Below, one piece after another: positions 30,270 through 39,340 of a DNA stretch of 64,000 bases (the first letter of the stretch is position 1; each line of letters opens with the position of its first letter). Position numbers and translations under genes: made by a program. The notes under the pieces were generated by a model that saw nothing but the letters and a program-made list of their open reading frames with translations, was not told the origin of the DNA and did no database searches. The stretch spans positions 1 to 64,000 of the forward strand of contig JAFGYE010000002.1 in the NCBI GenBank assembly GCA_016936255.1. The letters are read 5' to 3'. Origin of the DNA: Marinifilaceae bacterium. Its GTDB lineage: Bacteria; Bacteroidota; Bacteroidia; Bacteroidales; Marinifilaceae.

Positions 30270-31328
30270 ATGAAAAAAACTCGCTTATTTTTTCAATTTG
30301 TAGGAATTGGTGTTTTCACCATTTCTCTGTTAATAGCTGGTTGTACAAAGGAAGGACCTATGGGACCTGCTGGTGCTGACGGAACTAATGGAACCAATGG
30401 AACTGATGGAAATTCAACATGTTTAGATTGTCATGCTACAGAAGTTAAATCTAATATTGAGGCTCAATTTGCAATGTCCGTTCATAGCAGTGGTATCAAT
30501 GCTGTTGATTATGCTGGGGGACGCGCTTCTTGTGCACAATGTCACTCTCATCAGGGGTTTGTCCAATTCGCTAATACAGGTGAAGTTGCTGGTAATATTA
30601 GCAATCCTACGGCATGGGAATGTGCAACATGTCATGGTTTGCATGAGTCGTTTGGAGGCAGCGATTATGCTTTAAGACTTAAAGATCCAGTACATCCAAT
30701 ATTTGATCCTAGTATTACTATGGATTTAAATGGAAACTCAAATTTATGTGCAAATTGTCATCAGTCAAGAAGAGCTGAGCCTATTTTTGACGTGCCAGGA
30801 GAAACATACAAAATTACAAGTACTCATTACGGGCCTCATCATGGAGCACAGGCTAATGTAGTTGCTGGTGTTGGCTTTGCTGAAATTGAAGGTTCTGTAA
30901 CTTATCCTGTGGCTGGATCTGCAACTCATTTAGCACAAGCTTCTTGTACCGGTTGTCATATGGCAGAATTTGATAATGATGAAGATCAAGGTGGACATAC
31001 ATATAATCCTTCTCTTTTAGCATGTAATACATGTCATGGTGTTGAAGAGGCAGATTTTAATTATGGAGGAGTACAATCAATTGTTGAAGGTCAACTTGAA
31101 ACACTTAGAGACGAATTAATCCGTTTAGGTGTTGTGGTTTGGGTTGAAGCTGATGCAGCTTACGAACCAGTTGTTGGAACTTATCCTATGGTTCAGGCAC
31201 GCGCATTCTTTAATTGGGCTGGATTAGAAGAAGATCGTAGTTTAGGAGTACACAATCCAAAATATGTGAAAGCTTTATTGCAAAATTCAATTGAAGCATT
31301 AGAAGCAGAGCCAACTCCAGGTATCTAA
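30270..31328 (+). CDS. Hexahaem cytochrome c lipoprotein with collagen-like stalk
   Basis: A 352-residue lipoprotein. The signal ends in LIAGC with the lipidated Cys at 25. Directly after it, residues 29-49 are seven Gly-X-Y triplets (GPM, GPA, GAD, then GTN/GTD types), a collagen-like spacer. Six CxxCH haem motifs follow at 51, 88, 118, 160, 226 and 252, and extra histidines such as STHYGPHHG can serve as axial ligands. The C-terminal 80 residues are haem-free. It probably sits at the outer membrane, held away from it by the stalk, and carries electrons. It is monocistronic, with its own terminator, and shares a 16-bp upstream motif with the cytochrome set at 34893-38296. Confidence 0.9.
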   Translation: MKKTRLFFQFVGIGVFTISLLIAGCTKEGPMGPAGADGTNGTNGTDGNSTCLDCHATEVKSNIEAQFAMSVHSSGINAVDYAGGRASCAQCHSHQGFVQFANTGEVAGNISNPTAWECATCHGLHESFGGSDYALRLKDPVHPIFDPSITMDLNGNSNLCANCHQSRRAEPIFDVPGETYKITSTHYGPHHGAQANVVAGVGFAEIEGSVTYPVAGSATHLAQASCTGCHMAEFDNDEDQGGHTYNPSLLACNTCHGVEEADFNYGGVQSIVEGQLETLRDELIRLGVVVWVEADAAYEPVVGTYPMVQARAFFNWAGLEEDRSLGVHNPKYVKALLQNSIEALEAEPTPGI

Positions 31329-31530: not shown

Positions 31531-31848
31531 TTATTTACTAGCTTCTTCTTTTACTTTAAATTTTAATTTTTCAAGAGCTTCTTTTAAATTTTTTTTATTG
31601 GTTACTTTGGTTTTATAGGTAACAGTCACTTGTTGCTTTTTGAAATCAATCTTTAAAGCTTTTACTCCTTTCTCATAAGGAATGTTTTTTTCAATTTTAC
31701 TGGCACATCCCATACAATCCATTTCAACCTTGAAAATTACAGTATCAACTTTCTTCTCTTCTTTGCTATTTGCAAAAGTAGTACTTGTAAGCAAAACGAA
31801 ACTTAAGGCCATTATGGATGTTCTAAGATTTCTTGTAATTTGTTTCAT
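31531..31848 (-). CDS. Exported heavy-metal-associated (HMA) domain protein
   Basis: A 105-residue protein with a signal peptide (MALSFVLLTSTTFANS) followed by one HMA ferredoxin-like domain. The metal motif is MDCMGC, and the usual beta-alpha-beta pattern follows to the C-terminus. Such domains bind Cu(I) or similar soft metals. Export means it works in the periplasm as a metal chaperone or scavenger, not as the cytosolic CopZ type. It is last in a three-gene minus-strand set, 32 bases after the TonB-dependent receptor, so it likely hands over metal taken up or sensed by that receptor. Confidence 0.88.
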   Translation of the reverse strand: MKQITRNLRTSIMALSFVLLTSTTFANSKEEKKVDTVIFKVEMDCMGCASKIEKNIPYEKGVKALKIDFKKQQVTVTYKTKVTNKKNLKEALEKLKFKVKEEASK

Positions 31849-31880
31849 GTTTATTATTATTTGAACTGGTAAATATTTCT

Positions 31881-34100
31881 TTATTCAATTGTTAGGCGAA
31901 CACCTAAATAAAATTTTCTTTCCTGAATCGGTCCCCAGATCATAGTAGCATCAAAGTGCTCTCCAAAAGGGTTTTCTGCTTCTATAATAGGATTCTTTTG
32001 AGTATAATTGCCAAGATTTTCTCCTCCAAAATACAATTCCCAAATGCGAAAACGTTTTGTGATTTGGGCGTTCATCAAAGCATAAGCCGGAGATTTTTCT
32101 CTTCGTTGAAAATCACTTGGATTTTCCTGAGTAGATGGAATTTTCATATCACCGTTAAACTGAGTGGTAAAATCAAATTGCCATTTGTTAAAGTTGGTTG
32201 CATATGACAAATTGATTAAACCTTTGTAACGATTCACGTATGGAACTTTTCTGAATTCATTATTAATATCCGCCTTAACATCCGAAAAGCGAATTCCAGT
32301 AGTAACATCAAAACGTTCTACAGGCTCAAATTTTAGTTCTATTTGAAAGTTGTTTGCCCATGATCGTCCATCCATATTGTAAAATTTAACTGAATTCAGA
32401 TTGTTATCCAGATCAACAATTACCTGGTTACTGAATGTAGTTCTATAGCAATCAGCCGAAGCTGTAAAACTTTTTTCAAATAAATTGAAATCCTGAGTTA
32501 AGCTTAAGCCAAAGTTCCATGCTTTTTCCTGTTTTAAATTATCCTGGATATAAAAAGACCTGCTTGAAGCTAGCAGAAAGCTGTTTTCAGCAATTGGATT
32601 AGAGGTTCTTCTGCCACTGCCACTTGCCATGCGAATTGTTGATGTAGGAGTAAATTGATATCTGAAATGAACTCGTGGAGTTACAAAATCACCAAAAATA
32701 TTGTGATTGTCATACCGCAAGCCTGTTTGCAAAGTGATTTTGTCATTAGGGAGCCATGAGTACTCTACATAAGCACCTGCAACTTTTTTGGTTTGGTTAG
32801 TACCAAGATTGTCTCCAGATAAATAATCTTTGAAGTCATCGTAAACATACGATAAGCCGGCAGTGTATTTGTGTTTCAAATTCCCAATATAAGATTGAAA
32901 AAGCAAATTGGCATAAAAATATTTCTGATCCGCATCGTAATTTCTTAATCCGTAAAATGATTTTTGCTCGTGCGCGGCAAAATTAGTGATCAATGCAATG
33001 CTCTTATTGCCATCTTTTGGAAACATGTATCCCATTTTTGCAAATGCTTCATATCTGCGTGTGTCAATATTAATTCGGTAGGCATTGCTGAGATCATTAG
33101 GTTGATTTGTATTATATCCTTTTTGACCACCAGTTCGTTGTTCATCAATGAATTTAATGCCAAATTGGGCTTTCAGATTTTTACCGGCGTCCCAATTCCA
33201 ACGGTTCACAAAATTGTATTGTGACACCATTGGATCGTCTAAAAAATGATCATGGTTCATATCTATTTCCCGATCATTATCTTGAACATGGGCGAGGATA
33301 GAAGTTGATAATTTTGGCGAAAACTTAACGGAAGTAATTGCATTAACCTCAGTCATTCCCATACTGTTGGCATAAGTGTTTAGATAGAATTTTGGCGATT
33401 TTTGTGGTTTCAGATATTCTATATTGATTTGACCGGTTATGGACTCATATCCATTAATAACAGATCCAACTCCTTTAGAAACCTGTATGGATTCCATCCA
33501 AGGTCCGGGAACATACACCATGCCGTAAACAGATGCCAATCCCTTAAAATTTGGATTTTTTTCAGTCATCATTTCGATATATTTCCCGGTAAGTCCAAGC
33601 AGCTTAATTGATTTCGCACCTGTCGCGGCATCGGCGTACGAAACATCAACCGAAGCATTTGTTTCAAAGCTTTCGGAAAGATTGCAGCAAGCTGCTTTAC
33701 ACAGTTCAGCACCTGTTATATTTTGCGACTGTATCGGGTTTTCCCGATCTGTAACAGTTCCCAATTTACGCTTCGAAATTACAACTTCGTTTAGTGCAAT
33801 ATTAGGAATAAGTTCTACGATGATTTCTTTTGTGCCAATTTGTTCAAGAGTTATTTCTTTTGTTTCATAACCAACAAATTGTATCACCAGTGTTTTGGAT
33901 TTCGTACTTGAATTTAAAGTGAAAATACCATCAGCGTTTGCGGCTGTGCCAATTGTTGTGTTTTTCCAAAATATCGAAGCTCCGGCTAATGGGATAATTT
34001 CTCCGGAAACAGGTTTTTCAATTATTTTTCCTTTGATATCTTCAGCAATTGAGAAAATTGGAAGCAGAGATAGGATTATTGTTAGAATTCTAATCTTCAT
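31881..34100 (-). CDS. TonB-dependent outer-membrane receptor, probably metal-related
   Basis: A 739-residue receptor with a signal peptide (about 1-19), a carboxypeptidase-regulatory-like beta-sandwich (about 20-95, PLAGASIFWKNTTIGTAANADGIF), a plug domain (about 110-230) and a 22-strand-type barrel ending in aromatic GVRLTIE. The plug contains three cysteines at 134, 138 and 139 (ELCKAACCNLSESFETN), a feature I associate with receptors next to HMA proteins. There is no SusD partner, so polysaccharide import is unlikely. Flanking genes encode a Cys-rich HYC_CC_PP protein and an HMA protein. Copper or another soft metal is the likely ligand. Confidence 0.9.
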   Translation of the reverse strand: MKIRILTIILSLLPIFSIAEDIKGKIIEKPVSGEIIPLAGASIFWKNTTIGTAANADGIFTLNSSTKSKTLVIQFVGYETKEITLEQIGTKEIIVELIPNIALNEVVISKRKLGTVTDRENPIQSQNITGAELCKAACCNLSESFETNASVDVSYADAATGAKSIKLLGLTGKYIEMMTEKNPNFKGLASVYGMVYVPGPWMESIQVSKGVGSVINGYESITGQINIEYLKPQKSPKFYLNTYANSMGMTEVNAITSVKFSPKLSTSILAHVQDNDREIDMNHDHFLDDPMVSQYNFVNRWNWDAGKNLKAQFGIKFIDEQRTGGQKGYNTNQPNDLSNAYRINIDTRRYEAFAKMGYMFPKDGNKSIALITNFAAHEQKSFYGLRNYDADQKYFYANLLFQSYIGNLKHKYTAGLSYVYDDFKDYLSGDNLGTNQTKKVAGAYVEYSWLPNDKITLQTGLRYDNHNIFGDFVTPRVHFRYQFTPTSTIRMASGSGRRTSNPIAENSFLLASSRSFYIQDNLKQEKAWNFGLSLTQDFNLFEKSFTASADCYRTTFSNQVIVDLDNNLNSVKFYNMDGRSWANNFQIELKFEPVERFDVTTGIRFSDVKADINNEFRKVPYVNRYKGLINLSYATNFNKWQFDFTTQFNGDMKIPSTQENPSDFQRREKSPAYALMNAQITKRFRIWELYFGGENLGNYTQKNPIIEAENPFGEHFDATMIWGPIQERKFYLGVRLTIE

Positions 34101-34255
34101 ATGAAATAAATAAACACAATAGATAAGTAAAGTCTTATATTGAGACTTTTGATCTAAAGAGTAGTTAAATAAGTGATTATTTTTGGTACTGAAATTTACA
34201 AGATCTCTTATGGATAAGAAATCATGGTATTAAATGAAGCAGAAATGGTAGGAAA

Positions 34256-34693
34256 TCAACAAATAAAGCAACACAACACCTCTGGTTTTATGCGCTTGTT
34301 TCTGTCTGAATTACTGTCTTCAAATTCATGAAGATACCTTTCAGGTGCAAAAATTATTTGTGAGTTTATTGTTTGCGATGTGAAAAGTACTGTTTCTGAG
34401 GCAATCGGAGCCTTGTTTGCTTTTGTAATTACAGTTGTTGGGTTTGTTTTCAGATAAACTAAATCAAAATCACAACATACATTGTGATCTGAATGCACGA
34501 TATACGTATTTGTTGATTTTTTATTTTCCTTGCAACAACAATTGGTACAAGAAGTATCAGAATTTATTGAGATTGACATCTCGGAATAATCGCAGGTTGG
34601 GCAACTGTGCTTTAAAAGATGAATACCGCAAAATCCTGCAAGGTAGAATACCAGCAGAACAATAGATATGATATTTTTTATTCGTTGCAGCAT
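34256..34693 (-). CDS. Cys-rich membrane-anchored protein, HYC_CC_PP type
   Basis: A 145-residue protein with an N-terminal hydrophobic segment (about 8-24) and the pattern GIHLLKHSCPTC. Twelve cysteines fall in clusters at 22, 31, 34, 49, 52-54, 73-74 and 141, 142 and 145, ending in CCFIC. The layout matches the HYC_CC_PP family, small proteins found beside TonB-dependent receptors in Bacteroidota; their function is not established. Cysteine clusters of this type could bind soft metals. It is first in the set with the receptor and HMA protein, although the 155-base gap to the receptor leaves room for another promoter. Confidence 0.75.
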   Translation of the reverse strand: MLQRIKNIISIVLLVFYLAGFCGIHLLKHSCPTCDYSEMSISINSDTSCTNCCCKENKKSTNTYIVHSDHNVCCDFDLVYLKTNPTTVITKANKAPIASETVLFTSQTINSQIIFAPERYLHEFEDSNSDRNKRIKPEVLCCFIC

Positions 34694-34842: not shown

Positions 34843-34873
34843 AAATAAAAACCGAATCCAATGGATCCGGTTT
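34843..34873 (-). terminator. Terminator of the cytochrome b gene
   Basis: On the minus strand AAACCGGATCCA-TTGGATTCGGTTTTTATTTT forms a hairpin with one mismatch and a U-rich tail, 20 bases past the cytochrome b stop codon. Confidence 0.85.
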
Positions 34874-34892: not shown

Positions 34893-35507
34893 TTAATGCC
34901 AACCCGTTATCATGCTTTTAAAATTACTGCTAATAGAACTTCCTATTGTACAAACATACAAATGTATAAACAGAAAAAGAGATAAAACAAAACCGATAAT
35001 CACATGTACTATCGCCGTAATTAATAAACCGCTGAATCCAAATATTTGAGGAATAATGATTTCAGGAAATAACATTGCCGTGCCACTTGCTATAATAATA
35101 GGAAATCCAACATACATAGCGGTTGAGTAAATGAAACGTTGCATTGGATTAAATTTATTTTCAGCCGATATCGGATAGGGAGAATCCTGCTTTTTAAACA
35201 TTCCAAAAAGGTAGTATACCGATTGGTTGTAGATTCGGGTCAGTAAGCCTTTGGTTTTCATTTTGTATTGTTTTCCATTTGATGTAAACAGATTTCCAAA
35301 AATAAAAAGAAGGTAATTAAGACTTATCAGTATGCCGCAAAGGTTATGGAACTCAACAGATCGTTCAAAGGAAATCAACAGAGGATTCTCAGGATTTGAA
35401 TATTGCATACTAACTCCCGTAACCAAAAGAGTAATAAAAAGGATTGCATTCATCCAGTGCCAGATACGAATCCAAATTGGATATAAATAAAGTTTTTCGC
35501 TAGCCAT
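34893..35507 (-). CDS. Cytochrome b561-type membrane protein
   Basis: The start at 35507 gives MASEKLYLYPIWIRIWHWMN and 204 residues. The longer ORF runs back into the heptahaem gene. Four membrane helices carry histidines typical of di-haem hydrogenase/thiosulfate-reductase cytochrome b subunits: IRIWHWMN, VEFHNLCG, AIVHVIIG and LFIHLYVC. It begins one base after the stop of the heptahaem cytochrome gene, so the two are tightly coupled. It probably exchanges electrons with menaquinol and passes them to, or takes them from, the anchored heptahaem protein in the periplasm. No catalytic molybdenum or hydrogenase subunit is nearby. Confidence 0.85.
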   Translation of the reverse strand: MASEKLYLYPIWIRIWHWMNAILFITLLVTGVSMQYSNPENPLLISFERSVEFHNLCGILISLNYLLFIFGNLFTSNGKQYKMKTKGLLTRIYNQSVYYLFGMFKKQDSPYPISAENKFNPMQRFIYSTAMYVGFPIIIASGTAMLFPEIIIPQIFGFSGLLITAIVHVIIGFVLSLFLFIHLYVCTIGSSISSNFKSMITGWH

Positions 35508-35508
35508 A

Positions 35509-36471
35509 TTATTTACGTTTAAAGATTCTGAAAATGGTGTGAATGAAAATTCCAGATAGCACCAACCCAAAAATAATTACACTTAATATATTCAAATACT
35601 TATTACGGTTCGCACCTATAACGTACGATTCATTTATAATTACCGCGTTAATGAAACCGTTGCTTTTGCGTGATTCCATACTTTTGTACTTATACAGACT
35701 AGCCATTAAGCGTGAGTTTTCAGAATGACATTTAGTACATTCCCGAATAGCATTCTCTTTTGGCATAACAACGTGGCTTATCAGCAGGCTGTCATTTAGT
35801 TGTGTATGACACTCGATGCATCTAACATTCTTAAAATGAAGCTCTTGATTTGGCAGCCAGTCGTGTGTCTTAAGAATATTGATGTTTTCCCTTTCGGTGA
35901 GTAATTCAAATTGACTTATATCAGCATGACATTTTAAACAAATATTATTGTCGTAAGTAACTGTTTCTGAAATTTTCCCACCTTTACTTGCCTGTGTTTT
36001 GTAGGAGTGTGGATTGTGGCAGCTCCAGCAGTTGAAGGCATCAGGTGCCCGATTGTAATGCATACTCTCATTAAAAGCAACTTCAATCTCATCAAAATGA
36101 AATTTAGCATACTCAGGATCACCGCCATGGCAATCATTACATGCGTACATTAGTCCCATTCTCAAATTGCCATCATGAGGGAATGTTTGATATTCAGGCG
36201 AATGGCAATCAGTACAATCAAACATTCCATGATTGGATTGCACATAAGCGATGGTATCAATTACTCTATTGTCACACATTGCTTCTTTTATCTCAATGCC
36301 AAAATCTTCATTCATATATTTGAATGTGTGATTTCCATGGCATTTAAGGCATTTTTGGTTTTTGTCGTTGCCAGACTGATTTTCTTCATTTGTTTCCTGC
36401 CCGAAACCAAAAGAAACAGTGCAAAGGAAACTAACAATCAGAATAATATGTTTAAAATTGCTTAGGTTCAT
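35509..36471 (-). CDS. Heptahaem cytochrome c with C-terminal membrane anchor
   Basis: From ATG 36471 it has 320 residues; the ORF can be read from a TTG two codons earlier. A signal peptide (1-24) is followed by seven CxxCH motifs at 41, 86, 111, 148, 178, 218 and 245, then one membrane helix at about 293-312 with a basic tail. Many further histidines could be axial ligands. It should lie in the periplasm anchored to the inner membrane. It overlaps in function with NapC/NrfH-type or Cyc2-like donors but is larger and different in spacing. The adjoining cytochrome b suggests a quinone-linked module of two subunits. Confidence 0.9.
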   Translation of the reverse strand: MNLSNFKHIILIVSFLCTVSFGFGQETNEENQSGNDKNQKCLKCHGNHTFKYMNEDFGIEIKEAMCDNRVIDTIAYVQSNHGMFDCTDCHSPEYQTFPHDGNLRMGLMYACNDCHGGDPEYAKFHFDEIEVAFNESMHYNRAPDAFNCWSCHNPHSYKTQASKGGKISETVTYDNNICLKCHADISQFELLTERENINILKTHDWLPNQELHFKNVRCIECHTQLNDSLLISHVVMPKENAIRECTKCHSENSRLMASLYKYKSMESRKSNGFINAVIINESYVIGANRNKYLNILSVIIFGLVLSGIFIHTIFRIFKRK

Positions 36472-36515
36472 GCTCAAGTTATTAAGTGTTGCAATTTGGC
36501 TTTATTAAATTTTCA

Positions 36516-36543
36516 GAAAAAAAGGGTATAAAAATTATACCCC
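36516..36543 (-). terminator. Terminator inside the cytochrome set
   Basis: On the minus strand GGGTATA-ATTTT-TATACCC is followed by TTTTTTTC. It lies between the monohaem cytochrome gene and the heptahaem gene, all on the same strand, so it should end or attenuate transcripts of the first three genes before the last two. Confidence 0.85.
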
Positions 36544-36564
36544 TTTTTAATGTCTGAATATCGA

Positions 36565-36969
36565 TTACTTTTTAAATGTACGCATGTAGTTTACAAGAGC
36601 CCATCGATCTTTTTTGCTTGGAATTTTAGTTTCATAGTTAGGCATTTCATCTCTTCCGAAAATAGCTTTGTACATCATTTCGCCATCAGTTTGAGCTTGA
36701 AAATCAGAATCTGAAAAATCACCAGGGAAGGTTTTAAGACGAGCTGCTTTTGGTCCGTCTCCTAATCCTGCATTACCATGGCATGAACGACAATGTTTCA
36801 TGTAAACCATTTTTCCTGTGTTCACACTGGCTTTATCATTAGCTAATGGGTTTTCCATGCTTTTATATTCTGCAGGTACTTCCCAGGCTTCAGCTTTTTT
36901 TTGTTGTGCAGTAAATGCAAATCCTACCACCGCAATTGCAATAAGGATAAAAAATTTCATCTTTTTCAT
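36565..36969 (-). CDS. Monohaem class I cytochrome c
   Basis: A 134-residue exported protein with a signal peptide (about 1-20) and one haem motif, CRSCH, at 60-64. The distal Met is probably Met 109 in GRDEMPNYE, and the closing helix RWALVNYMRTF is typical of class I cytochromes. It is likely a small soluble electron carrier in the periplasm. It is third in the set after the lipoprotein cytochrome and the DUF5777 barrel and could shuttle electrons between the inner-membrane module and the outer membrane. A strong terminator follows. Confidence 0.92.
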   Translation of the reverse strand: MKKMKFFILIAIAVVGFAFTAQQKKAEAWEVPAEYKSMENPLANDKASVNTGKMVYMKHCRSCHGNAGLGDGPKAARLKTFPGDFSDSDFQAQTDGEMMYKAIFGRDEMPNYETKIPSKKDRWALVNYMRTFKK

Positions 36970-36998
36970 AAGTAACTTTTTTTAATTAAGAGAATTAA

Positions 36999-37913
36999 CT
37001 AGAACCTTACTAAGATATTAAATCCTACAAGAAAGTCGCCGTCTCCAATTTTATTTTTATTGTATAAAATGTTCCTTTGTGGAGTAATTCCCTCATAGTT
37101 CGACATAAACACCTGGAACACGTGAGTACTAGTACCAATTTCCATACCAAAAGTTAAATTGGCTTCAGGATCGGTTTGATCTGAATTGGTAAATTCTCTC
37201 ATATCATCAATGTTTAATGGCTGATCATATTCAAAAAATACAGACATCGAAGGTGTTACTTTAGCTCTACCAGAAAGGGTAATTGCTACCTTGTCATGTT
37301 CAACTAAAGAATCTGTTTTATTAAAATGCGTAAAACTTGGAGCTAATTGCAACGAGATATTCTCATTAAATTTGTGTGCTACTATTAACTGAGAAAAATA
37401 TCCCAATCTATCTGAGAATGCATAGTCATTACCAAAAACTACTTCATCTTGAGAGTTAATTGATAGATTTCCATACAATGCTACAGAAACAGGAATTGAA
37501 TTCGATTCTGTTTGTGTGAAAAGTCTGTATTTTCCATGAAATTCCTGCAGTTTAAATTCTTTAGTATATCCGTAACCCAACATGAATTTTTCGGTAACAC
37601 CATAATTTATTCCCATGCGAATGTTTGAGGTGGCATAAATACCAAAAACATCTTCCAATCCATTTTCGATTAATCCAAAACGGTGTTGAATATGTAATTC
37701 AAATTCGCCGGCAAATGGAGTTACTGTAGTTTGAGTTTCTCCAAGAAGTCCAGACTCAAAAGTACCGGTAACAGGATCGTTTGCAAATTCATCTTCTTGA
37801 GCAAAGCAATTTTGTGATGCACTCAAGACGATAGCAAGAAACAAGAAGAAAGGGAACATCCATGAAAAAGTCATTTTCATAAATTTTTGAATTGAATATT
37901 TAGATCTTATCAT
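36999..37913 (-). CDS. DUF5777-type outer-membrane beta-barrel protein
   Basis: The start at 37913 avoids overlap with the upstream gene and gives 304 residues with a signal segment (MFPFFLFLAIVLSAS...CFAQ). The rest is a run of amphipathic strands alternating with turns and ends in the aromatic FNILVRF, as outer-membrane barrels do. The pattern fits DUF5777, a Bacteroidota family often found near cytochrome genes; its function is not established. Set between a lipoprotein cytochrome and a soluble cytochrome, it may be a porin-like partner for moving electrons through the outer membrane. No haem motif is present in the barrel itself. Confidence 0.75.
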   Translation of the reverse strand: MIRSKYSIQKFMKMTFSWMFPFFLFLAIVLSASQNCFAQEDEFANDPVTGTFESGLLGETQTTVTPFAGEFELHIQHRFGLIENGLEDVFGIYATSNIRMGINYGVTEKFMLGYGYTKEFKLQEFHGKYRLFTQTESNSIPVSVALYGNLSINSQDEVVFGNDYAFSDRLGYFSQLIVAHKFNENISLQLAPSFTHFNKTDSLVEHDKVAITLSGRAKVTPSMSVFFEYDQPLNIDDMREFTNSDQTDPEANLTFGMEIGTSTHVFQVFMSNYEGITPQRNILYNKNKIGDGDFLVGFNILVRF

Positions 37914-37924
37914 AGTGTATAGTT

Positions 37925-38296
37925 TTAATTGTCGTTGGCACCTCGGGTTATCCACTCAAGAATTAATTGTTTTTCAGTTAATGAAGCTCGGGTACTGTGA
38001 GATCCTGATTGTAATTTTGTATACAATTCGCTGGAGCCTGGAAGATCAACATTTATATAACCTCCGGTAGTTAATGCATTAAATGCATTGGATGCTCTTA
38101 GATCCGGATTAATTCCACCATCATGACAGCTAATGCAATTGGAAGTGAATATGGGTACGATATCCGTACTAAAGGAGATTTCCTGGTCAGGTGGTATAAC
38201 GATTTGATCCACTTCAATGGTATCGTATTCGCACGAAACAAAACACAGAGTTGTCAGGAAAACCAGTAAAAGACTTACTAAGTTGTTCTTTTGCAT
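37925..38296 (-). CDS. Monohaem cytochrome c lipoprotein
   Basis: A 123-residue lipoprotein whose signal ends CFVSC (lipidated Cys 22). It has one haem motif, CISCH, at 54-58 in the context FSTDIVPIFTSNCISCHDGG, a form seen in the cytochrome domain of planctomycete-type and Bacteroidota lipoproteins. The C-terminal LTEKQLILEWITRGA helix is also typical of that family. It is the first gene of the cytochrome set and would be anchored in the outer membrane near the DUF5777 barrel. The shared 16-bp motif lies about 145 bases upstream. Confidence 0.88.
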   Translation of the reverse strand: MQKNNLVSLLLVFLTTLCFVSCEYDTIEVDQIVIPPDQEISFSTDIVPIFTSNCISCHDGGINPDLRASNAFNALTTGGYINVDLPGSSELYTKLQSGSHSTRASLTEKQLILEWITRGANDN

Positions 38297-38438
38297 AGTA
38301 TTGAGGTTTTTAAATTTAAGTACTAATTAGTGATAGCAAGGATTTAACCTTATCCAATAAAGATAAATATTTGTCTTTAGCGCGATTGTATTGTTACGCC
38401 GAGATTTATTTTATGAAAAAAAGGAATTTGTCTAATAC

Positions 38439-38454
38439 AAATCGACATTTATCA
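38439..38454 (+). promoter_or_regulatory. Candidate Crp/Fnr-type operator in the divergent region
   Basis: AAATCGACATTTATCA is the exact reverse complement of 30081-30096. Its core is an imperfect TGAT-N4-ATCA-type dyad. It lies between the Crp/Fnr-family gene and the cytochrome set, suggesting autoregulation and control of the cytochromes. Confidence 0.5.
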
Positions 38455-38635: not shown

Positions 38636-39340
38636 ATGGCTAAATTCTCAAAATCGGATAATTGCAAAAATTGCCTTGATTGCAATATGCGCATCCCGAT
38701 GTTAAGTACTCTTTCCCGCCCGGAACTAATTGAATTGAATGAAAACAGGTTTGAAGTAAAGTTTAAGGCTGGAGAAACAATATTTAAACAAGGAACTTCT
38801 GCAACTCATCTATTAATTTTGACAACAGGTTTGGCAAAATTATACGTGGAAGGTGTTCAGGATAAACAGTTGATAATTAGAATAATTAGACCTTGGGAAA
38901 TCATTGGGCAGGCATCTTTGTATTTTGATAACAGACATCATTATTCGATTGCCGCACTTGATAATACTACTGCTTGTTTTATTGAAATAAATGCTTTTAA
39001 AAAAGCCATTCAATCAAATCCACTATTTGCCGAGGAATTCATTAAGAATTGCACGCAAAAAGGAATCTTTTCTTTTGAAAAAATGGTGAGTTTATCGCAA
39101 AAACAAATGCACGGTCGCATAGCCGACGGACTTATTTATCTTTCGGGCAAAGTGTATGAAGCCCTGAACTTTGATTTACATCTTTCAAGGCAAGATGTTG
39201 CAGATCTGACAGGCATGTCGAAGGATAGTGCGATTAGAATTCTAAAAGAATTTCATAATGAAGGTATTATTGAATTGGATGGCAGGAAGTTAAAAATATT
39301 AAATTACGGACAGCTGGAACGAATTAGCGAAACTGGTTGA
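38636..39340 (+). CDS. Crp/Fnr-family transcription regulator with N-terminal Cys cluster
   Basis: A 234-residue regulator. The cyclic-nucleotide-binding-like barrel spans about 20-140 (FKAGETIFKQGTSATHLLILTTGLAKLY) and the winged helix about 150-225 (LSRQDVADLTGMSKDSAIRILKEF). The N-terminus has CKNCLDC (Cys 10, 13, 16), with another Cys in TTACFIEI, resembling the four Cys of oxygen-sensing FNR although with different spacing. The recognition helix keeps Arg but replaces the Glu and Ser of FNR's ExxSR with Asp and Ile. It is divergent from the cytochrome set and has candidate operators in the shared upstream region. The likely signal is redox or oxygen, but this is inference. Confidence 0.9.
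   Translation: MAKFSKSDNCKNCLDCNMRIPMLSTLSRPELIELNENRFEVKFKAGETIFKQGTSATHLLILTTGLAKLYVEGVQDKQLIIRIIRPWEIIGQASLYFDNRHHYSIAALDNTTACFIEINAFKKAIQSNPLFAEEFIKNCTQKGIFSFEKMVSLSQKQMHGRIADGLIYLSGKVYEALNFDLHLSRQDVADLTGMSKDSAIRILKEFHNEGIIELDGRKLKILNYGQLERISETG

Follow-up and report, generated by a model that had tools for sequence, protein, structure and literature searches.

On the minus strand of a 64,000-nucleotide stretch of DNA from a Marinifilaceae bacterium (contig JAFGYE010000002.1, positions 1 to 64,000; hereafter the window) lies a five-gene operon encoding a monohaem lipoprotein cytochrome (LIPO), a β-barrel of the DUF5777 family (BARREL), a monohaem cytochrome c (MONO), a membrane-anchored heptahaem cytochrome (HEPTA) and a cytochrome b (CYTB). 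We tentatively propose that this locus encodes a chain leading from menaquinol to a multihaem reductase at the outer membrane, for the use of extracellular or poorly soluble acceptors, which would be Fe(III), Mn(IV) and possibly electrodes or shuttles. CYTB would oxidise menaquinol and hand the electrons to HEPTA in a CbcBA-like manner, MONO would carry them through the periplasm to an outer-membrane unit of LIPO and BARREL, and HEXA, a hexahaem lipoprotein of the OcwA/NrfA type encoded 3.6 kb from the operon on the opposite strand, would be the terminal reductase. The respiratory module is larger than 34893-38296, as it also includes HEXA and a divergent Crp/Fnr-type gene. Its gene set, haem motifs, conserved ligands, linkage, co-occurrence and family matches were observed directly; the direction of electron flow, the location of HEXA at the cell surface and the HEXA substrate are what we infer.

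The five open reading frames (ORFs) lie where the initial annotation had placed them, and both Pfam and the haem motifs agree with the identities that it gave; in three of them the likely start lies a little way into the called ORF, at ATG 37913 for the barrel, ATG 36471 for the heptahaem gene and ATG 35507 for cytochrome b. Gene order and strand are identical in 13/13 Marinifilaceae loci (Labilibaculum/Marinifilum). LIPO and HEXA are predicted lipoproteins, each with a lipid-type cysteine and haem motifs in its sequence. For LIPO, the automated signal count is unreliable among Marinifilaceae, as it settled on a cysteine upstream of the lipidated one, and the lipidated cysteine was assigned from a 15-row alignment in which Cys22 and the haem-motif residues Cys57 and His58 are invariant, the motif reading CX4CH in some rows. 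The sixth haem ligand may be a methionine in some rows and a histidine in others, including the window protein, and the sole Pfam signal in LIPO is a CBB3 match under the threshold (18.2 bits against a cut-off of 27). MONO begins with a hydrophobic, signal-peptide-like stretch (residues 1-24).

The inner-membrane end of the chain is well conserved in its candidate ligands. HEPTA, which is hydrophobic over residues 291-318, has seven invariant CXXCH motifs in 14 rows and seven further invariant histidines, enough for seven bis-His haems, besides one invariant histidine in its C-terminal helix. CYTB has four invariant histidines (38, 75, 189 and 203 in the numbering of the longer ORF; 16 rows), which fits two b haems. 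With a dihaem b561/HydC-type cytochrome b and a multihaem c-type partner in one operon, the HEPTA/CYTB pair looks like a CbcBA-like quinol oxidase; in Geobacter, CbcA is a separate heptahaem cytochrome. Searched against PDB sequences, the HEPTA profile found 28pb ('Cytochrome c', 4.1e-8) and nitrite reductases from 4.2e-7. A thiosulfate-reductase membrane subunit was rejected as the identity of CYTB, which scored 169.8 bits against PRK15006, below the cut-off of 204, and no molybdopterin match occurred among the ten genes scanned with Pfam.

At the other end stands HEXA. The initial annotation had held that no known terminal reductase was encoded, a claim that probably fails because HEXA belongs to a terminal-reductase family. 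The protein (352 residues, single-copy in the window genome) has an N-terminal lipid anchor, a collagen-like spacer and an OcwA/NrfA-type C-terminal half. Across 18 rows it has six CXXCH motifs, the first missing only in the truncated L100 and the last reading CX4CH in some rows, together with only five further invariant histidines, so that one haem may be open or differently ligated. Its profile matched, among PDB sequences, 6qvm ('Multiheme cytochrome cf', 3.3e-15), which we take to be OmhA of Carboxydothermus ferrireducens, and 6i5b (1.9e-14), then octahaem and pentahaem nitrite reductases (from 4.5e-11) and MtrC (from 2.5e-05). The OcwA paper contains the code 6I5B once, and its available text presents OcwA as a nonahaem reductase at the cell surface, a member of the NrfA family that works on electrodes and amorphous iron oxide and has His-His pairs above two open haems (PMC6703420). 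His190 of HEXA is invariant and is followed by histidine in 12/18 rows and by tyrosine in 6/18; it aligns with the VHHP of 6qvm and falls near an HH of 6i5b, which would be residues 380/381 of the OcwA paper if ~29 precursor residues precede the chain.

The CXXCK haem of classical NrfA is absent from the window HEXA, all six of its motifs being CXXCH, and its match to PF02335 reached 22.3 bits, below the cut-off of 24.1. The HEXA model has a mean predicted local distance difference test score (pLDDT) of 42.5 (11 rows) and is poor except around three C-terminal helices, where ten-residue blocks have pLDDT 52-89. The top seven Foldseek matches of this model were ONR, NrfA and MccA chains, all at E >= 0.6, so the fold comparison is consistent with the assignment but is no proof of it. 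The pattern of haem motifs and the C-terminal three-helix bundle fit the OcwA/NrfA multihaem family, and by sequence HEXA is likely a terminal reductase of this type.

How tightly are these genes tied to one another? We fetched neighbourhoods for 20 lower-scoring and 20 high-scoring DUF5777 loci at the order level and for 40 at the class level. The 20 lower-scoring loci were hand-picked by score, so the counts describe a chosen set: HEXA occurs in 16 of them, HEPTA in 18, CYTB in 17, MONO in 16 and an ImcH-like cytochrome in 7, and one locus (L103) fell in the other barrel clade described below. HEXA sits directly before LIPO in 11 of these 16 loci, after CYTB in L088-L090, and elsewhere in L093 and L104; among the Marinifilaceae loci it is near the operon in 10/13, the stretch ending first in L002, L007 and L008. 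In a sample of 247 order genomes, HEXA (E <= 1e-25) was found in 66, HEPTA (E <= 1e-35) in 56 and both in 51, with a Fisher value of 2.6e-33 that ignores shared ancestry and is inflated by relatedness. For distances we counted a single HEXA place in each genome (66, with six second ones removed), 56 HEPTA places (the second piece of G345 being dropped) and 150 DUF5777 places among the matches listed, which represent 100/103 positive genomes. On this basis 47/56 HEPTA places lie within 3 kb of a DUF5777 gene among the matches listed, all 47 on the same strand and nine not so placed, and 47/66 HEXA places lie within 8 kb of one among the matches listed.

Related loci add NapC/NirT, NrfD/FeS, CbcL-like and giant haem proteins and one type-IX-tailed haem protein. 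A 1968-residue cytochrome with 26 CXXCH motifs and a β-helix domain (L104:1040-6946) lies beside a HEXA-LIPO-BARREL locus without HEPTA or CYTB. Upstream of the operon, L087 (4324-5118) and L091 (6922-7716) encode one-haem proteins with a type IX secretion sorting domain, which passes the cut-off in L091 with 32.8 bits and narrowly misses it in L087 (26.6 against 27); these are possible secreted partners.

The barrel family itself is divided. BARREL contains a DUF5777 domain of 247 residues, and PF19089 is described as a 'membrane bound beta barrel'. DUF5777 was found in 259/295 class genomes and 103/247 order genomes, and in 0/14 control genomes in each search. In a tree, 24 barrel rows, including that of the window, form a clade (100/100) apart from 60 rows of the other kind; HEPTA accompanies 23 of the 24, and the remaining one (L104) has HEXA but no HEPTA. 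A LIPO homologue or another CX2-4CH gene lies within four genes upstream of the barrel, on the same strand, in 70/79 loci (of 80 neighbourhoods, L069 gave no barrel ORF), and three of the nine others have a cytochrome gene downstream. By position relative to the barrel, the CX2-4CH motif is present in 52-58% of genes at -1/-2 and in 13% at -4; at -5 and farther upstream, and at +3 and beyond, its share never exceeds 8%. DUF5777 loci of the other kind often hold YceI, an OB-fold protein and planctomycete-type cytochrome lipoproteins. A recurrent cluster of CX2-4CH cytochrome lipoprotein(s), an OB-fold protein, YceI and DUF5777 was seen in L046, L113 and other class-level loci.

The initial annotation had called for a survey of the neighbours of DUF5777, and what emerges is a respiratory clade tied to HEXA, HEPTA and CYTB, in a family that is not specific to electron export: HEXA, HEPTA, CYTB and the ImcH-like protein were found in 0/60 of the other DUF5777 loci, a set chosen from outside the respiratory kind and typically carrying YceI. 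DUF5777 alone was accordingly rejected as a marker of electron export, given its breadth across the class. In the literature searched, which was one paper collection, we found no mention of DUF5777.

The physiology of close relatives is in keeping with a role in metal reduction. The closest barrels in a species scan, 95-97% identical, belong to Labilibaculum (L. manganireducens, L. euxinus and strain K2S), and it is for Labilibaculum relatives only that metal reduction among carriers of the module was checked. According to the available text of their description, all four of the described Labilibaculum strains could reduce Fe(III), both as citrate and as oxides, and 59.10-2M (L. manganireducens) also reduced Mn(IV); the strains left nitrate, nitrite and sulfate unreduced, and three of them passed more electrons to Fe(III) citrate than to Fe oxides (PMC5760507). 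The available part of a Marinifilaceae survey repeats the metal reduction and describes putative metal-reductase genes as highly transcribed (PMC9765461).

Several points weigh against the proposed chain. The first concerns the passage of electrons or shuttles across the outer membrane, because the barrel appears too narrow for a cytochrome to fit inside. The barrel profile found one match among PDB sequences (E 0.42), and the BARREL model, built from 14 near-identical rows, has 11 called strands at a mean pLDDT of 38.6. With this model Foldseek returned six matches at E <= 0.001, five to FapF and one to an OmpC model, with general porins next. FapF is a 12-strand barrel; by the usual geometry, as simple arithmetic, a 12-strand barrel has a backbone radius of ~11 Angstrom, which is too small for a cytochrome domain. 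The barrel is thus probably small as modelled, and a larger true barrel would weaken the objection; the structure models of BARREL and HEXA are both of low confidence. No further barrels were found in two scans of viral contigs. The cluster also holds no soluble periplasmic multihaem plug. In 22/26 rows only one acidic residue follows the HEXA lipid cysteine (the other four rows having a mis-set cysteine or being truncated), and surface export is therefore not evident. Soluble-substrate reductases are among the HEXA matches, HEXA forms its own transcription unit in the window, it occurs without HEPTA in 15 genomes and HEPTA without it in 5, and two other Marinifilaceae genomes in the sample, G388 and G477, lack both of them as well as DUF5777. 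Finally, in the available text on Labilibaculum, metal reduction takes a minor share of electrons, 2-16%, and the authors also name a predicted ferric reductase (PMC5760507).

Seen against these points, the complete route from menaquinol through the periplasm to the outer membrane that the initial annotation had suggested holds in part: the four histidines of CYTB, the seven haems and histidines of HEPTA, the cytochrome genes upstream of so many barrels and the Fe(III) reduction of relatives support it, and the last step, across the outer membrane, does not follow from a barrel that is small in a low-confidence model. A small barrel would imply either an undescribed crossing of electrons or shuttles, or a periplasmic HEXA with a soluble acceptor entering through the barrel.

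This second arrangement is possible, if somewhat doubtful. HEXA would then face the periplasm and reduce a small oxyanion, a nitrogen compound, a peroxide or an Fe(III) chelate that enters via a small DUF5777 channel, the rest of the chain being the same. The probable size of the barrel would suit it, as would the HEXA matches to NrfA and octahaem nitrite reductases and the adjoining Crp/Fnr-type regulator, and Bacteroidota lipoproteins that lack an export signal generally face the periplasm. The greater electron share of Fe(III) citrate over Fe oxides in the three strains points the same way. However, HEXA lacks the CXXCK haem and falls below the PF02335 cut-off, and 6qvm and OcwA rank above the nitrite reductases as the two best of its profile matches; the tested strains, as far as the available text goes, do not reduce nitrate, nitrite or sulfate; and giant, type-IX-tailed and CbcL-like cytochromes adjoin some related loci.

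A classical porin-cytochrome conduit, in which a cytochrome inside the DUF5777 barrel would wire the periplasm to the surface, had also been put forward by the initial annotation. The cytochrome gene upstream of the barrel in 70/79 loci speaks for such a conduit, and an outer-membrane protein with redox lipoprotein(s) would amount to two of its three elements. We nonetheless consider it improbable, because the locus offers a monohaem and a membrane-anchored heptahaem protein but no multihaem cytochrome that is soluble in the periplasm, and the barrel looks small, with 11 strands in a poor model against the 18 to 21 predicted for Geobacter Ext barrels in the available text of PMC6148476; moreover, 9/79 loci lack the upstream cytochrome, and MtrB/PioB (PF11854) had 0 matches in the window genome, in a search that covered the Mtr type only and left Omc and Ext barrels outside it. 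Equally improbable is that the barrel serves as an assembly or export partner of cytochrome lipoproteins without electron transfer, next to a cytochrome chain of unrelated purpose, for although lipoprotein-barrel pairs also occur in YceI/OB-fold loci without HEPTA or CYTB, DUF5777 is found in 259/295 class genomes and five of the six best Foldseek matches are to the secretion barrel FapF, the window barrel belongs to a separate clade tied to HEXA and HEPTA, and the FapF match rests on a model with a mean pLDDT of 38.6.

Beyond the operon, the window genome has what appear, from sequence comparison, to be counterparts of three Geobacter quinol-oxidase types (CbcBA-like, ImcH-like and CbcL-like). 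Its ImcH-like NapC/NirT protein (504 residues, six CXXCH and one CX3CH, N-terminal hydrophobic stretches) is 52.6% identical to its counterpart in L086, and its CbcL-like protein (932 residues) shares 60% identity with the one next to the operon in L101, with a cytochrome b match below the cut-off in the window genome (26.4 against 30.1 bits) and above it in L101. The available text of PMC6295460 gives ImcH three helices and seven haem motifs, gives CbcL nine haems and six helices, and counts five CbcL-type homologues and one ImcH-type homologue in Bacteroidetes; the 19-haem CbcL-like proteins thus have many more haems than CbcL. We found no description of the operon in the literature searched, a single paper collection.

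In the available text, the Labilibaculum authors mention a cytochrome annotated as NrfHA (PMC5760507). A classical NrfHA was rejected for the window genome, in which NrfA had no match and the NapC/NirT proteins are one FGE-sulfatase fusion and the ImcH-like protein. The fusion is an unusual pairing of quinol-oxidase and sulfatase-modifying domains, 466 residues long, in which a NapC/NirT domain (four CXXCH) is joined to an FGE-sulfatase domain (G000:C43 118985-120385; L134:6986-8386, minus strand), and its neighbours look SusC/SusD-type. Another multihaem gene, on contig C120, lies in a cluster read as alternative-complex-III-like.

Turning to the surroundings of the operon (Table 1), the divergent Crp/Fnr-type gene adjoins it in 13/13 Marinifilaceae loci, and a homologue is present in 16/20 of the lower-scoring order loci. 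The inverted repeat in the gap between them falls within a block that is conserved across an alignment of 12 loci, and is exact, with the same letters, in the Labilibaculum rows and imperfect in the Marinifilum rows; the pattern alone is not rare, occurring twice in the window with one mismatch allowed against 1.1 expected. Terminator-like sites in the region are not in excess (2 found against 2.1 expected in shuffles). Between the operon and HEXA, positions 31531-34693 encode a TonB-dependent receptor, an HMA protein and a 145-residue Cys-rich protein without a Pfam match, probably a separate metal-related unit because it is missing from that place in locus L003.

Table 1. Features of the respiratory module, its flanks and the CbcL-like proteins (window positions unless a locus is given)
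Feature	Position	Strand	Basis
LIPO, monohaem lipoprotein cytochrome	37925..38296	-	lipid Cys22, one CXXCH
BARREL, DUF5777 β-barrel, respiratory clade	36999..37913	-	PF19089 2.4e-72
MONO, monohaem class I cytochrome c	36565..36969	-	PF13442 (Cytochrome_CBB3) 5.8e-11, one CXXCH
HEPTA, heptahaem cytochrome with C-terminal membrane helix	35509..36471	-	Cytochrome_C7 6.8e-15, seven CXXCH
CYTB, b561/HydC-type cytochrome b, probably two haems	34893..35507	-	PF01292 1.3e-25
HEXA, hexahaem lipoprotein, candidate terminal reductase	30270..31328	+	six CXXCH, PDB profile matches
Crp/Fnr-type regulator, divergent from operon	38636..39340	+	PF00027, PF13545
Inverted repeat ATTTGT-N5-ACAAAT, possible operator	38426..38442	.	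conserved block, regulator-operon gap
Terminator-like hairpin 3' of CYTB	34849..34873	-	not above chance number
CbcL-like protein, window genome	L137:8183-10981 (G000:C118 66182-68980)		19 CXXCH, C-terminal cytochrome-b-like membrane part
CbcL-like protein of L101	L101:11152-13953		19 CXXCH, C-terminal cytochrome-b-like membrane part (932-933 residues in the two proteins)

The proposed chain offers a concrete, testable route for mineral respiration in such bacteria: L. manganireducens and its relatives reduce Fe(III), and one of them also Mn(IV), without identified machinery, and a conserved module permits a gene-by-gene test. HEXA and HEPTA together also provide a marker pair for finding other candidates, present as they are in 51/247 sampled order genomes. 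A bolder and unlikely extension would be that the LIPO-DUF5777 pair is a new minimal outer-membrane redox unit across Bacteroidia, to which a Bacteroidales clade joined a CbcBA-like oxidase and an OcwA-like HEXA, giving rise to an extracellular respiration unrelated to Mtr/Pcc.

Where, then, does the module stand among known systems? The YceI-type DUF5777 clusters of Bacteroidia likewise have cytochrome lipoprotein(s) beside a DUF5777 barrel, but often add YceI and an OB-fold protein, lack HEPTA, CYTB and HEXA in 60/60 loci and form a separate clade. For a bioanode-enriched Bacteroidetes metagenome-assembled genome (Bacteroidetes_1), the available text reports seven genes, six for 'multiheme cytochrome proteins', three of them with membrane helices, and one for a barrel, and calls them a likely uncharacterised cluster for extracellular transfer (PMC8258643). 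Loci L086 and L094 resemble it in having six consecutive cytochrome genes together with a barrel gene, and three of the cytochromes, as we read them, have membrane helices. Compared by text description, it may nevertheless be another cluster, because two of the cytochromes here are monohaem and one is b-type, HEXA, HEPTA and the ImcH-like protein alone being multihaem, whereas all six are multihaem by that text. The same source places b-type and seven-CXXCH cytochromes of Zoogloea beside MtrB and DmsE homologues (PMC8258643), which fits an electron-export role for b-type/heptahaem pairs.

HEXA resembles OcwA of Thermincola potens, NrfA and the octahaem reductases in its C-terminal half, haem motifs and C-terminal helices, and differs from OcwA in having six haems instead of nine, a lipid anchor with a collagen-like spacer, and a Gram-negative host. 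The HEPTA/CYTB pair, likened to Geobacter CbcBA and CbcL by their descriptions, shares with them a c-type multihaem protein paired with a HydC/FdnI-type cytochrome b, and differs in its linkage to DUF5777 and HEXA. As in the Mtr, Pcc and Ext conduits, a barrel and redox lipoprotein(s), here putative ones of the outer membrane, are encoded together, but here the barrel is apparently smaller and without an MtrB match, the lipoprotein is monohaem, and the periplasmic side has no soluble multihaem cytochrome. Most likely, the chain resembles those of Geobacter in its logic, but is arranged around an unrelated and probably small barrel.

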